Source: a virus. Taken from it: DNA of 30,033 nt. Positions 20,144 through 25,863 of this stretch are shown here, piece by piece. Numbering within the stretch: the first letter of the stretch is position 1; each line of letters begins with the position of its first letter. The DNA is taken from the IMG/VR virus record IMGVR_UViG_3300019776_000191, positions 1 to 30,033 of that record; one strand, 5' to 3'. Made by a program: the position numbers and the translations under genes. The notes below the pieces were generated by a model that was not told where the DNA came from, did no database searches, and was given only the letters and a program-made list of their open reading frames with translations.

Positions 20144-20743
20144 ATGGACACAGCACACATGCCCACCACACGGGAAGAAGCAAAGAAAACCGGCAGTAAA
20201 TACTATTTCACTGGACAGCCCTGCAAACACGGGCACGTAGCCCCACGCAAAACTAAAGGCGCTTGTGTTGAGTGTCTAAAGGTTGAGTGGGTAAAAGGGA
20301 ATGAAGCTAGGGCAGCGTACTTTCGTGAGTACAGCAAACGTGAAGATGTCAAAGACCGAAAGAATACGTGGTACATAGAAAACCGTGAAACGGTTATTCT
20401 TGCGGCAGCTACACGTCCGCAGCACGTAAAGCGGGAATACCAAAACGCATGGAAAGAACGCAATCTTGTTTGGGTACGCGCCGATACCAAAAACCGAAGA
20501 CGTAAACACCGTGAAGCCACGCCCAAATGGCTTAGTAAGAGCCAAAAAGCCCAGATGCGTGAAATGTATAAGATGGCCATAATCATGACCCAAACTACAG
20601 GTGAGCGCTATGTGGTAGACCACATCGTCCCGTTACGGTCTGATTTTGTGTGTGGGCTGCATGTGCCTTGGAACCTGCGCGTAATCACCCAAGAGGAGAA
20701 TTTGAAGAAGTCAAACAAGCTACTTGACACACCCCAAGAATAG
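20144..20743 (+). CDS. HNH endonuclease, probable free-standing homing enzyme
   Basis: 199 residues. N-terminal Cys/His site CKHGH (C27, H31) plus CVEC (C41, C44), likely one structural zinc; a basic helical middle; and the C-terminal HNH core YVVDHIVPLRS (D159-H160), PWNL (N177) and QEENLKKSNK (N187/N191). The core is complete. It lies alone between the major capsid gene and the next structural gene, flanked by a terminator and a new promoter, as expected for a mobile gene that settled in a late operon. AGGAAAAACA is the SD. The last codons overlap the downstream promoter's -35. Confidence 0.93.
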   Translation: MDTAHMPTTREEAKKTGSKYYFTGQPCKHGHVAPRKTKGACVECLKVEWVKGNEARAAYFREYSKREDVKDRKNTWYIENRETVILAAATRPQHVKREYQNAWKERNLVWVRADTKNRRRKHREATPKWLSKSQKAQMREMYKMAIIMTQTTGERYVVDHIVPLRSDFVCGLHVPWNLRVITQEENLKKSNKLLDTPQE

Positions 20744-21393: not shown

Positions 21394-21684
21394 ATGACAA
21401 TGCAGTATGACGTCAAGTCAACGCATTTGAACGCGTCTGGTACGATTTCTAATCAGCCAGCGCGTATCAAAGGGTTCTCCATTTGTGCCACGGCCAGTAC
21501 GGCAGGAACACTGGTGCTCAAAGACGGCGGCTCAAGCGGCACCGCTATGGTTGAGATTGACATTCCGTCGAATTCAAACCCCAACTCGTTTTATGTTTTG
21601 GTTCCAGGGGAAGGCGTGCGGTGCTACACCGACATCTACGCAACCATGACCAACATCGCCAGTGTGACGGTGTTCTATGGCTAA
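21394..21684 (+). CDS. Small beta-rich structural protein, 96 aa
   Basis: MTMQYDVKSTHLNASGTISN, then ICATASTAGTLVLKDGGSSG and FYVLVPGEGVRCYTDIYATM. Beta-sandwich-like composition; I recall similar small proteins of phage late regions that contain GTLVLKDGG and GEGVR blocks. GTAGGAGCACCCC is the SD. Its stop overlaps the start of the DUF6321-like gene by 8 bp, so it belongs to the same late operon. Role in the virion is inferred. Confidence 0.72.
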   Translation: MTMQYDVKSTHLNASGTISNQPARIKGFSICATASTAGTLVLKDGGSSGTAMVEIDIPSNSNPNSFYVLVPGEGVRCYTDIYATMTNIASVTVFYG

Positions 21685-21931
21685 GTCACCTGCATGGCAA
21701 CGCAAGGAAGGCAAGAACCCCAAGGGCGGACTGAACGCCAAAGGGCGTGCCTCCTACAACGCAGCCAACCCTGGGAAACCGGGGTTGAAACGTCCGCAGC
21801 CAGAAGGCGGCAGCAGGCGGGATTCCTTTTGTGCCCGGATGGAAGGCATGAAAAAGAAACTGACCAGCGCCAAGACGGCCAAAGACCCCAATAGCCGAAT
21901 TAACAAGAGCCTTCGGGCTTGGAAGTGCTGA
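21677..21931 (+). CDS. DUF6321-like small basic protein
   Basis: 84 residues: MAKSPAWQRKEGKNPKGGLN, AKGRASYNAANPGKPGLKRP, then GGSRRDSFCARMEGMKKKLT and SAKTAKDPNSRINKSLRAWK. The WQRKEGKNPxGGLNxKGRxSYN block and the following basic part match what I recall as DUF6321, found in many phages with unknown function. More than a quarter of residues are Lys or Arg and order is likely low. First of a series of tiny basic proteins in the late operon; could bind DNA inside the virion. Confidence 0.88.
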   Translation: MAKSPAWQRKEGKNPKGGLNAKGRASYNAANPGKPGLKRPQPEGGSRRDSFCARMEGMKKKLTSAKTAKDPNSRINKSLRAWKC

Positions 21932-21932
21932 A

Positions 21933-22145
21933 ATGAATCACGACACCAAAAACATGATTGATGGCGCGGCAGTTGTGATGGGCCTCGGGGGCTTCCTCGG
22001 GGTTGTAACGCCTGTTGTTGCTTTGGTCGGCGGGGTGTTGACCATCGTGTGGACTTCTATGCGTATTGCAGAAATGGTCACGGGCAAGGCGTTTTCTGAA
22101 TTGCTTCCTTGGAACAAGAAAGACGACGATGCCATCAACAAGTAA
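21933..22145 (+). CDS. Holin-like membrane protein
   Basis: 70 residues: MNHDTKNMIDGAAVVMGLGG, hydrophobic FLGVVTPVVALVGGVLTIVW, then a helix and a charged tail LPWNKKDDDAINK. One long or two closely packed membrane spans with a charged C-terminus and this size fit a small holin that lets the endolysin out of the cytoplasm. No endolysin or spanin is seen nearby in the window. GGAAGTGCTGAA is the SD. The next gene starts inside its end. Confidence 0.65.
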   Translation: MNHDTKNMIDGAAVVMGLGGFLGVVTPVVALVGGVLTIVWTSMRIAEMVTGKAFSELLPWNKKDDDAINK

Positions 22146-22455
22146 GAAACAGCACAATTTCATGGAAGCGGTGGCCCACAACCCATCGTTTGCCAAGAAG
22201 GTAGGAGTCCCACAATCCGTGGGCAAAGATTTCAGCAACGCCGATAAAGGCAAATCTTTTAAACAAGGTGACGGTATGAAAAGCATGAAAAAAATGGCAA
22301 GCGGCGGCATCACCAATGCAAAAATGGGCACGGTTCGTACCGCTGCTCCAAGCAAAGACGGCATTGCCTCCAAAGGCAAAACCAAAGGCACCATGATTTC
22401 CATGAAGGGCAGCAAGCCTCTGGGCATGAAGCGCGGCGGCAAAGCCGCTTGCTGA
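22129..22455 (+). CDS. Small basic protein of the PSTSKKQHN family
   Basis: 108 residues: MPSTSKKQHNFMEAVAHNPS, FAKKVGVPQSVGKDFSNADK, then repeated short Lys/Gly/Met stretches (MKSMKKMASGG; KGKTKGTMISMKGS; KRGGKAAC). The N-terminal block is one I recall from many phage late regions; function unknown. The C-terminal half is low-complexity and positively charged. The start at 22129 lies within the holin gene and has only a weak SD; coupling is likely. Residues before this start in the longer ORF overlap the holin and are not conserved in my memory. Confidence 0.82.
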   Translation: MPSTSKKQHNFMEAVAHNPSFAKKVGVPQSVGKDFSNADKGKSFKQGDGMKSMKKMASGGITNAKMGTVRTAAPSKDGIASKGKTKGTMISMKGSKPLGMKRGGKAAC

Positions 22456-22456
22456 C

Positions 22457-22735
22457 ATGATGGCCAGCCGTGGGATGGGCGACATCAGCCCATCCAAAAT
22501 GCCCAAGGCCAAGACGATCAAACGCAAGGATGATCCGAACGAGGTGACGATGTACAAAGAAGGCGGCAAAGTAAATGCCGCTGGAAATTACACCAAGCCC
22601 GGCATGCGTAAGTCGCTGTTTAATTCCATCAAGAATTCAGCAGTGCAGGGTACGGCGGCTGGTCAGTGGTCAGCACGCAAAGCACAGTTGCTTGCCAAGA
22701 AGTACAAGGCAAAAGGTGGGGGCTACAAAGATTGA
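22457..22735 (+). CDS. Small basic protein of the MASRGMG...AAGNYTKP family
   Basis: 92 residues: MMASRGMGDISPSKMPKAKT, KRKDDPNEVTMYKEGGKVNA, AGNYTKPGMRKSLFNSIKNS, and an end QWSARKAQLLAKKYKAKGGG. This block order is familiar from other phages, next to relatives of its neighbours. No function is known to me. Strongly basic, probably disordered except a central helix. No good SD; the second ATG (22460) is also possible. Start lies 1 bp after the upstream TGA. Confidence 0.82.
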   Translation: MMASRGMGDISPSKMPKAKTIKRKDDPNEVTMYKEGGKVNAAGNYTKPGMRKSLFNSIKNSAVQGTAAGQWSARKAQLLAKKYKAKGGGYKD

Positions 22736-22965
22736 AAGCGCCACAGGCTTCCCTTAAAAACTGGACTGCCCAGAAATGGCGCACCAAGTCGGGGAAGCCT
22801 TCGTCAAAAACAGGCGAGCGCTACTTGCCTGAAGCTGCAATCAAGTCCTTGTCTCCTGCTGAATACGCCGCCACCACCAGAGCCAAACGTGCGGGTAAGG
22901 CGGCAGGCAAACAGTTTGTGGCGCAGCCCAAAAGCATTGCAAAGAAAACAGCGGGGTTCAGATAA
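22732..22965 (+). CDS. Small basic protein starting at TTG, KAPQASLKNW family
   Basis: 77 residues: (M)KAPQASLKNWTAQKWRTKSG, KPSSKTGERYLPEAAIKSLS, then PAEYAATTRAKRAGKAAGKQ and a tail KSIAKKTAGFR. Its relatives, as I recall, start with KAPQ, which points to the TTG at 22732 as start. The codon overlaps the previous TGA as TTGA, and GGTGGGGG upstream may act as SD. No ATG gives a sensible start: the ATG at 22666 reads through the previous gene. One of the series of small basic proteins. Confidence 0.78.
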   Translation: MKAPQASLKNWTAQKWRTKSGKPSSKTGERYLPEAAIKSLSPAEYAATTRAKRAGKAAGKQFVAQPKSIAKKTAGFR

Positions 22966-23138
22966 TGGCTGAGAAGTGGATTCAGAAAGCGATCAAGAAG
23001 CCCGGCGCACTGCGTGCGTCTCTTGGTGTTAAGGGCGATAAGCCCATCCCCGCTGGCAAGCTGGCCAAAGCGGCCAAAGCCCCTGGCAAAATGGGCCAAC
23101 GTGCGCGTCTAGCGCAAACACTCAAAAAAATGAGGTAA
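22965..23138 (+). CDS. Small basic protein of the KWIQKAIKKPGAL family, 57 aa
   Basis: Read directly: MAEKWIQKAIKKPGALRASL, GVKGDKPIPAGKLAKAAKAP, GKMGQRARLAQTLKKMR. Strongly basic with about one third Lys or Arg. I recall this as one of the most constant tiny proteins of phage late regions, role unknown. The ATG overlaps the previous TAA by one base (TAATG), so translation is probably by coupling. Confidence 0.85.
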   Translation: MAEKWIQKAIKKPGALRASLGVKGDKPIPAGKLAKAAKAPGKMGQRARLAQTLKKMR

Positions 23139-23142
23139 GACC

Positions 23143-24087
23143 ATGGCAGGCGGCGCAGGAAGTGTAGGCGGTTCAGGCGGCATGGGGCAGCAGCCCATGG
23201 GCAACGCATCGGCGCAGCCACAAATGGGTGGTAGCTTTGGCCCGGCCCCAAACAACTTTGCCCCTCAGACTCAAAGCGGTAGCTACAGCCAAGCATTTGG
23301 TGGCGGCTCCCAGGGAAACAGCCCGTTTGGCATGCAGCAACAGCAGCCATACGGCATGCAGCCCATGCAGAACCCGTTTGCGGGGCAAAACCCCTATATA
23401 AATTCAATGCCCGGGCCGTCATGGGCGGGTGGGTATTTGGGCCAGCAACAAATGGGACAACTTGGTGCTCCCAATCAAATGGCGCAACCCATGCCGCAGC
23501 CGCAGCAGCCCTCGTACCAAAGCAACCCGGACTTCCAAGCATACCAAACGCAGATGAACGACCTCAGTCGTCAGATGGACGACTACGTGAAGAAAGCGCC
23601 CATGTATCAGCAGTTGCAAGATTTGCAGGGCAAGATGCGCGGATTCCAACAACCGCAGGGGCAGATGGGCGACACAGGGTTCAATAAAGCCATGCCTGCG
23701 GTAATGCCGCGGCAACCCGACTCAGGTATGCTGGGCGAACTAGGCTTGTCTACCCCTGAAACTTACGGCAATCAGCGCATGGACTACAGAATGGGCATGC
23801 CTGGCTATGGTGGTCGTGGCGGCTATGGTCAGCGCCCCCAGCAAGACTATGGCTACGGCCAGATGCAAAATCAAATGCGTCAACAAGCAGCGTTTGGGCA
23901 GCAACAACGCCAACAGTATGGCGGCTTGAGTGCGTTGCAGCAGTATTTGCAGCCGCCGTCGTATCGCCCCCCAGTTGTGGCCCCATTGCCTCTTGACCAA
24001 AATCTGACAATGCCAAAACCCACTCCTGCGCCTGTTAATACTGGGGGCTATGACAGTGGGTACACGGGCGTATCCAGCGGGTTTTAA
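23143..24087 (+). CDS. Disordered Gly/Gln/Met/Pro/Tyr-rich protein, 314 aa
   Basis: MAGGAGSVGGSGGMGQQPMG at the start, then many short motifs such as PYGMQPMQNPF, YGRGGYGQR-like strings (here GYGGRGGYGQRPQQDYGYGQ) and Met/Gln repeats. Only residues about 125-170 (SNPDFQAYQTQMNDLSRQMD followed by KKAPMYQQLQDLQGKMRGF) look helical. The rest is intrinsically disordered with prion-like composition. No known family. It lies in the late region directly before the gp4-like adaptor, so a virion or assembly role is plausible. There is no clear SD. Confidence 0.72.
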   Translation: MAGGAGSVGGSGGMGQQPMGNASAQPQMGGSFGPAPNNFAPQTQSGSYSQAFGGGSQGNSPFGMQQQQPYGMQPMQNPFAGQNPYINSMPGPSWAGGYLGQQQMGQLGAPNQMAQPMPQPQQPSYQSNPDFQAYQTQMNDLSRQMDDYVKKAPMYQQLQDLQGKMRGFQQPQGQMGDTGFNKAMPAVMPRQPDSGMLGELGLSTPETYGNQRMDYRMGMPGYGGRGGYGQRPQQDYGYGQMQNQMRQQAAFGQQQRQQYGGLSALQQYLQPPSYRPPVVAPLPLDQNLTMPKPTPAPVNTGGYDSGYTGVSSGF

Positions 24088-24089
24088 TC

Positions 24090-25031
24090 ATGGCAGTCAC
24101 CTCTGGACAATCAGGCTTTAACCTTGACCTCACTGAGTTGGTCGAGGAGGCGTTTGAGCGTGCGGGCTCAGAGATGCGCACGGGGTACGACCTCAAGACA
24201 GCGCGGCGGTCTCTTAACTTACTGTTCGCTGACTGGGCCAATCGCGGCGTCAATATGTGGACGTTTGAGCAGGGCACAATCACGCTCACACAGGGGTTGA
24301 ACACCTACGCTGTTCCAACGGACACAGTTGACTTGCTTGACCATGTGATCCGCACCAATGCCAACATCCTGGCCAACCAAGCGGACTTGACAATCACGCG
24401 CATCAGCGTCTCAACCTACGCCACCATTCCCAACAAACTCAACCAAGCACGGCCCATTCAGGTCTGGTATCAGCGCCTGGACGGGCAGGTGGCTACCACC
24501 GCTTCGACGTTTGTGTCCCAGGACTTAACTGCCGCAACAATCACGCTGAATTCAGTTGTTGGGCTTCCCGCAATTGGGTACGTGGACATCGTGACCTCTG
24601 GCGGCACAGAGACGGTGTTTTACAACTACATCTCAGGGAATACCCTGAGTAACGTGTTTCGTGCACAAAACGGCACAACCCAGCAAACACCTGCGGCGGG
24701 CAACCCCATTCGCGTCAACAACGTCCCCCGTGTCACCGTGTGGCCAACACCTGATGGGTCGCAGACCTACCAGTTTGTCTACTGGCGCATGCGCCGGGTG
24801 CAAGACGCTGGCGGCGGTGTGAACGTCATGGACGTGCCCTTCCGGTTTATCCCCTGCATGGCCGCAGGGCTGGCGTACTACATTGCCCTCAAAGTACCGG
24901 GCGGCATGGATCGGTTGGCTGTGCTCAAACAGCAGTACGACGAAGCCTGGATGACAGCGGCGGACGAAGACCAAGAACGTGCAGCCCTGCGGCTGGTGCC
25001 CAGGCAGATGTTTATTGGTAGCGGAACGTAA
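24090..25031 (+). CDS. Head-tail connector, gp4-like tail accessory protein
   Basis: 313 residues: FNLDLTELVEEAFERAGSEM, YDLKTARRSLNLLFADWANR, GVNMWTFEQGTITLTQGLNT, and the helical end MDRLAVLKQQYDEAWMTAAD. These helix-rich flanks are those of P22 gp4-type ring proteins that sit below the portal. A beta domain of about 60 residues (DLTAATITLNSVVGLPAIGY through NVFRAQNGTTQ) is inserted in the middle, probably exposed on the ring surface. No SD of note; it follows the previous stop closely. Confidence 0.82.
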   Translation: MAVTSGQSGFNLDLTELVEEAFERAGSEMRTGYDLKTARRSLNLLFADWANRGVNMWTFEQGTITLTQGLNTYAVPTDTVDLLDHVIRTNANILANQADLTITRISVSTYATIPNKLNQARPIQVWYQRLDGQVATTASTFVSQDLTAATITLNSVVGLPAIGYVDIVTSGGTETVFYNYISGNTLSNVFRAQNGTTQQTPAAGNPIRVNNVPRVTVWPTPDGSQTYQFVYWRMRRVQDAGGGVNVMDVPFRFIPCMAAGLAYYIALKVPGGMDRLAVLKQQYDEAWMTAADEDQERAALRLVPRQMFIGSGT

Positions 25032-25469: not shown

Positions 25470-25661
25470 ATGGACAAGAAAGACTTGGCACAAGACAAGA
25501 AGATGATCGCAGGCGCGGTGCATAAGCATGAGAAAAAGATGCACCCCGGCAAGCCCATGACCAAGCTTCGTGCTGGTGGCAAAACCAACAGCGACATGCT
25601 GAAATACGGGCGCAATGTGGCCAAAATTATGAACCAGCGTAGCGTTGGTCGCGGGGGCTGA
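25470..25661 (+). CDS. Small basic protein of the DKKMIAGAVHKHE family, 63 aa
   Basis: MDKKDLAQDKKMIAGAVHKH, EKKMHPGKPMTKLRAGGKTN, and an end NVAKIMNQRSVGRGG. The HKHEKxMHPGKPxTKLRxGGKTN block is familiar from small proteins of phage late regions. Basic, His/Lys-rich. ATAAGGAGTCGAAC is a strong SD. Again of unknown function, and similar in style to the basic cluster at 21677-23138. Confidence 0.85.
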   Translation: MDKKDLAQDKKMIAGAVHKHEKKMHPGKPMTKLRAGGKTNSDMLKYGRNVAKIMNQRSVGRGG

Positions 25662-25662
25662 T

Positions 25663-25863
25663 ATGGCGACATACAAGCAACCAACCAAAGTGGCCAGCGT
25701 AGTTGTTGGCGAAGAGCCAGCCAAAGAGACGATGCGCAAAGCAAACGTGTCTGTGGCCAACACGCGCAGTCAAGACTATCCGCCCACCAAAACCAGCGGC
25801 ATCAAAATCCGTGGCACTGGCGCGGCTACTAAAGGCGTGATGGCCCGAGGCCCGATGGCATGA
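25663..25863 (+). CDS. Small basic protein of the MATYKQPTKVAS family, 66 aa
   Basis: MATYKQPTKVASVVVGEEPA, KETMRKANVSVANTRSQDYP, then PTKTSGIKIRGTGAATKGVM and ARGPMA. Recognised as a recurring small protein of phage late regions (KETMRKAN and RGTGAATKG blocks), function unknown. The start at 25663 lies 1 bp after the preceding TGA; the ATG six codons earlier overlaps the upstream gene. The stop overlaps the next start as ATGA. Confidence 0.85.
   Translation: MATYKQPTKVASVVVGEEPAKETMRKANVSVANTRSQDYPPTKTSGIKIRGTGAATKGVMARGPMA

Follow-up and report, generated by a model that had tools for sequence, protein, structure and literature searches.

Encapsulins, which are not viral, take up their cargo by means of cargo-loading peptides, short C-terminal peptides borne by unrelated proteins that enter a shell of the HK97 fold. 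In phage T4, the internal proteins IPI, IPII, IPIII and Alt share a capsid-targeting sequence; they are basic and small or variable, are made with the head, and join divergent bodies to one short terminal sequence, located at the N-terminus and cut off by the head protease (PMC9026906). The window analysed here, the whole of a virus contig of 30,033 bases, comes from an uncultured, podovirus-like phage whose metagenomic relatives point to a freshwater origin. It carries a series of short basic proteins and a C-terminal peptide, hereafter the tag, that ends many other proteins in related contigs. As in the T4 internal proteins, unrelated bodies (86 clusters) are joined to one short terminal sequence (a single tag), but the tag of the window's group is C-terminal rather than N-terminal and is unrelated in sequence to that of T4. 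The encapsulin peptides are like the putative phage loading tag in being short, C-terminal and placed on unrelated cargo, although no relation in sequence is claimed. This shared tag and the hypervariable locus into which tagged genes are inserted are the more unusual features of the region, and both had been missed in the initial annotation, which described the basic genes.

A late module of small basic genes and its relatives

The late block of the window lies on the plus strand, in the order terminase, portal, scaffold-like protein, major capsid protein (MCP) and, later, tail fibre (terminase, portal, MCP and fibre were named from PHROG matches, and the scaffold from its position alone). 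The initial annotation had placed seven basic genes at 21677, 22129, 22457, 22732, 22965, 25470 and 25663, and all of them were confirmed as open reading frames. They are listed here with gene B and the tag.

21677-21931, plus strand: gene A, 84 aa, net charge +17, DUF6321 domain
21933-22145, plus strand: gene B, 70 aa, hydrophobic, an optional member
22129-22455, plus strand: gene C, 108 aa, net charge +17, with a conserved N-terminal domain (about 42 aa) and the tag near the C-terminus
22357-22389, plus strand: motif of the tag within C (DGIASKGKTKG), 21 residues from the C-terminus
22457-22735, plus strand: gene D, 92 aa, net charge +14, phrog_17747
22732-22965, plus strand: gene E, 77 aa, net charge +15, TTG start, phrog_14910, predicted compact helical domain
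22965-23138, plus strand: gene F, 57 aa, net charge +14, N-terminal part resembling SSV1 VP2
25470-25661, plus strand: gene G, 63 aa, net charge +11
25663-25863, plus strand: gene H, 66 aa, net charge +7, variant tag at the end
25795-25836, plus strand: variant of the tag within H (SGIKIRGTGAATKG), 8 residues from the C-terminus

The stop-start overlaps described earlier were also found (B/C 17 nt, D/E 4 nt, E/F 1 nt and H/L 4 nt), and the start of gene A falls within the 3' end of the gene before it. The other late proteins examined were acidic or near neutral, with the sole exception of a +17 ORF at 20144.

Viral contigs were scanned three times, with F, C and E as baits, which gave 233 new loci; the homolog sets are the best 80 of each scan, and hence biased to close relatives, and the completeness of the contigs is not known. 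In iterated HMM searches over the 237 loci then collected (best 80 per scan), each basic family was present in 100-200 loci and in a fixed order. The order T P S M (X) Y A (B) C D E (F) K W G H L was displayed by most of about 200 contigs among the matches listed. When intact loci were defined as contigs spanning MCP to gene L (n=85, among the matches listed), A was present in 84, C in 82, D in 85, G in 81 and H in 82, while E was found in 68, B in 31 and F in 26. A, C, D, G and H are near universal and travel together (81-85 of these loci). In the six families measured (A, D, E, F, G, H), pN/pS was 0.13-0.29 with synonymous sites near-saturated. Because of the fixed order in 100-200 loci and the low pN/pS, we regard A and C to H as true genes; chance or low-complexity ORFs are ruled out by synteny, pN/pS and homologs, and the seven basic genes plus B make up a real late module. 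This gene order is a property of the window's phage group. Independent occurrence, which the initial annotation had named, together with absence from virions, as an argument against a joint virion function, was not seen within that group, but in other phages the families do occur singly or in pairs.

Several of the families are fused in relatives. C and A are joined in one frame in three loci, one of these fusions having an extra basic module in between, which in P-SCSP1 cyanophages is a separate gene behind A; C and G are fused in about 20 relatives, with G inside C; and D is fused to F in four loci and to E in two. Such fusions of A with C, C with G, D with E and D with F suggest that the families work together. 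Gene B had been called holin-like, but it matched no holin family in Pfam or PHROG, its best matches being DUF6556 (Pfam, E 0.25) and phrog_11374 (E 0.09); its hydrophobic stretch was judged by eye only.

The initial annotation has to be corrected in that A already bears a Pfam name, DUF6321 (PF19846), since it passes the gathering cut-off over the whole domain (68.7 bits, cut-off 28.5, profile 1-72 of 72). The A family was found in 531 INPHARED phages, mostly cyanophages. Whereas in the window the domain makes up a gene of its own (84 aa) within a head operon of podovirus-like type, in cyanophages it ends larger basic proteins, among them T4-like cluster GC119 and S-CREM2 gp137, of which latter it forms the C-terminus (E 4e-12). 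S-CREM2 gp137 (ORF137) was detected in CsCl-purified virions, with 4 unique peptides and 4.1% coverage (PMC10665884, Table 3); these peptides, which cover 4% of the protein, possibly lie outside the DUF6321 domain.

The N-terminal domain of C (first 42 residues) recurs in phiKZ-like and other jumbo phages. It stands alone as phiKZ gp165.1 and starts CBB gp322, GAP32_317 and 121Q gp51, whose first 40-42 residues, like those of gp165.1, align with C at 50-79% identity; the remainder of each jumbo-phage protein is unrelated and, in the loci checked, these proteins carry no tag. CBB gp322 has been found in purified virions by mass spectrometry (30 unique peptides, 43.6% coverage; PMC5259590, Table 4), the numbering of paper and record being tied by CBB_325, topoisomerase gp52.

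Phage HMO-2011 as well as pelagi-, roseo- and methylophages contain D and E, and several of them have the two close together; G and H had no relatives among cultured phages. The seven basic proteins are protamine-like in being short (57-108 aa) and highly basic (pI 10.3-11.7), but an unstructured polycation of drifting sequence does not describe them all, and the low complexity ascribed to them earlier proved only partly right. E was modelled as a compact alpha-helical domain (mean pLDDT 88, from alignments built without rows from annotated phage records), the alignments of E and F contain invariant positions, and in F these amount to 18 columns across 37 sequences. At least E is, as modelled, more than a simple polycation. 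The E model had no match in the PDB; that of F was helical and of low confidence (68). Searches for solved structures related to A, C (through phiKZ gp165.1), E and F found none that was convincing.

F and VP2 of virus SSV1 are both short basic proteins opening with a KW[IV]QKAIK[KR]PG motif. Fusello_VP2 (PF25632) was weakly matched by 28 of 37 F members (best E 7e-4), the window's F scoring 16.9 bits, under the Pfam cut-off of 27. Comparison of F with SSV1 VP2 gave an hhalign probability of 92.3 over 36 columns and a score of 18.1 bits, versus at most 9.2 for 2000 shuffled VP2 sequences. To judge from these scores, the similarity exceeds an effect of composition, although it is limited to the N-terminal half of F. 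VP2 belongs to the structural proteins of the virion and has homologs among unrelated viruses of bacteria; one study found that it can be dispensed with (PMC9608457).

A C-terminal tag on otherwise unrelated proteins

The tag has the consensus SSASxR[AG]DGIAQRGKTRG[KR]-hydrophobic-x-COOH or, more fully (263 ORFs), S-S-A-S-x-R-[AG]-D-G-[IC]-A-Q-[RK]-G-K-T-[RK]-G-[KR]-[MIFY]-[VCIL]. It occurs near the C-terminus of C, as a variant at the end of H, and at the ends of many unassigned ORFs, and A carries it in some relatives. The regular expression used to find it fixes part of the motif, but positions left free were also conserved (such as R at position -2, 86%, and K at position +7, 97%), and it matched 475 ORFs versus 2 in composition-shuffled ORFs (first 237 loci, best 80 per scan). 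In 263 of 484 unique ORFs the stop codon came exactly three residues after the motif. When tags of different genes on the same contig were compared, pS was 0.74 and pN 0.16; since synonymous sites are saturated (74% versus 16% non-synonymous differences), the tag is selected as a peptide, and a DNA repeat is rejected.

At least 230 tagged, otherwise unrelated ORFan proteins were found in relatives, falling into 86 clusters by BLAST. Among the matches listed, 186 (175 unique) were outside known families, and nearly all of these family-free ORFs lay between A and K, most of them between C and D; six lay between K and W. An independent nucleotide-pattern scan retrieved 121 loci, 120 of them with module families and as many as five tagged genes within one 5.9-kb contig, the single locus without the module (L373) being rejected as a chance match. 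The tagged bodies had a median of 108 residues, were near neutral (median +0.04 per residue) and rich in disorder-promoting residues, and 87 tagged representatives yielded no convincing family in Pfam or PHROG. We also considered that the tagged proteins might be membrane-inserting ejection proteins, and discarded this because, of 235 bodies, no more than 2 had a strong hydrophobic segment. In 27 of 108 intervals a rough gene call gave no tagged gene, so that tagged cargo is not essential; this call picked some antisense ORFs, its inside/outside table was left out, and the tag counts come from other scans.

The tag was absent from about 1500 conserved structural ORFs of the same loci, and a search of cultured phages gave nothing convincing. 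Cellular genomes (257 Gb) contained three matches, two of which were contigs with the module, and a literature search with five tag peptides retrieved no relevant paper.

Proposed role in the virion and rival explanations

We give about an even chance to an explanation in which the module encodes minor basic head proteins together with a hypervariable cargo locus between A and K, whose tag loads the cargo into the head. A, C, D, E, F, G and H would be expressed late, alongside the capsid genes, and would most likely end up inside the particle; between A and K, relatives insert as many as about five unrelated ORFans, all of them with the tag at the end. The tag would most likely bind the inner face of the prohead, the scaffold or a conserved module protein already there; tagged proteins would then be taken up ahead of DNA packaging and reach the host along with the genome. 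Capture in the prohead is proposed because the pattern is that of the T4 internal proteins with their capsid-targeting sequence. For the phage of the window, the presence of these proteins in the head, the loading function of the tag and the ejection of cargo are inferences. It is possible, though we put it forward tentatively, that in this lineage of tailed phages a C-terminal peptide serves as a general capsid-loading label, and that a dedicated locus in the head operon supplies interchangeable ORFan cargo carried into the host with the genome.

About 200 contigs (among the matches listed) keep the module at a fixed place between the capsid genes and those in adaptor position, which favors a head role, as do the F-family and C-family genes that adjoin the portal gene in HTVC027P and BUCT555; membership of the module in the virion receives indirect support from relatives of A, C and F. 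Between the two roles suggested in the initial annotation, internal virion peptides or host-directed late peptides, the former seems the better and is partly supported, as proteins detected in virions by mass spectrometry contain distant relatives of A and C, and F resembles VP2. Against the proposal counts that a 64.5-kb relative encodes elsewhere both a DNA-ejection-like protein and a protein of 2206 residues (virion-RNA-polymerase-like, with LPD38 matches); the ejection machinery thus seems separate from the module. If the tag does load cargo, it would allow virion cargo to be listed from sequence alone for a widespread uncultured phage lineage, would be a C-terminal counterpart of the T4 capsid-targeting sequence, and might serve as a peptide for loading proteins into phage heads. 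Small hypothetical genes, three families of which have relatives in known virion proteins, become testable head components.

Other explanations assign a different task to the same genes. The basic proteins might be in the virion only for bulk neutralisation or condensation of DNA, in the manner of protamines, with the tag as another DNA-binding basic tail. All seven are strongly basic, F resembles a protein, SSV1 VP2, that the older literature describes as DNA-binding, and the tag carries 4-5 Lys/Arg; we nevertheless hold this unlikely, because charge alone would not keep specific residues such as the invariant columns of F, a compact fold is predicted for E, the tag also keeps D, G, A, T and the exact distance to the stop codon, and the tagged bodies are near neutral. 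Quite unlikely in our opinion is a role in head assembly (helping scaffold, portal or packaging, with little or none of the proteins left in mature particles), with the tag recruiting accessory factors to the assembly site. The module does adjoin the capsid genes, and comparable positions recur elsewhere: an F-family gene lies directly 3' of the portal gene in pelagiphage HTVC027P, a C-family gene does so in BUCT555, and in S-CREM2 an A-family gene sits between the terminase genes. However, relatives of A and C are detected in mature virions, and hypervariable ORFan passengers would be unusual among assembly factors.

The same virion detections, together with the position in a late head operon, make it very unlikely that these peptides act late on the host and remain within the cell (for lysis timing, takeover or anti-defence), the tag marking them for a host target or machinery. 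An arms race would fit the hypervariable tagged proteins, and gene B may be counted for this explanation as a membrane protein, but A or C domains are common to phages of very different hosts, which argues against one host target. Finally, the exchange of tagged genes at one place with a constant 3' end could recall a recombination or cassette-exchange sequence, acting as DNA at gene ends and translated by chance. This is hardly credible and already largely refuted, since tags of the same contig differ at 74% of synonymous positions with the peptide kept, and the tag is in frame and right at the stop codon.

Neighbouring genes and observations on relatives

Three other genes of the late block deserve mention. 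The ORF at 20144-20743, immediately 3' of the MCP gene, encodes a 199-aa protein of charge +17 that looks HNH-endonuclease-like by eye; a Pfam search gave no match, and it is possibly a homing-type insertion. Between F and K, 23143-24084 encodes an untagged 314-aa protein rich in Gly, Gln and Met, with homologs in few relatives (5 ORFs, among the matches listed). The K family (24090-25031 in the window) gave two matches in succession (KK) in many relatives, which may represent a duplicated or interrupted K gene.

Two other relationships were discarded: E as a homolog of the N-terminal module of cyanophage GC119, suggested by eye (hhalign probability 0.8, unsupported), and giant-virus homologs of E and F, for which the top hits in a viral structure library were phage or unnamed entries. 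As regards C, cyanophage S-SCSM1 ORF93 (L379:11627-11836) is a 69-aa "virion protein" starting MPAVSKAQQRFM, weakly like the C start (E 0.001). CBB gp321 and gp322 (L248:3391-7544) match one another's PHROG families, as paralogs would, and of the two gp322 alone has the C domain at its start.

Regarding A, its relative Greip gp45 (L245:3876-4127) bears the GenBank name "RecA-like recombination protein"; this identity was rejected for A of the window, which matches DUF6321 alone in Pfam, and the Greip label is probably a mis-annotation. The T7-like P-SCSP1 cyanophages (L246 and L382) have, between MCP and the tail tubular gene, A together with another tiny basic gene, a placement equivalent to that in the window; the cryo-EM paper on P-SCSP1u, in which gp14, gp20, gp21 and the internal or ejection proteins were looked up, contained nothing on an A-like protein. 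In S-CREM2, gp160 (L381:31843-32736) is a +30 protein detected in virions, and by eye it has further basic modules (CWxGY..., ...VWPSAYASGALVKC...) in common with P-SSM2 GC119.
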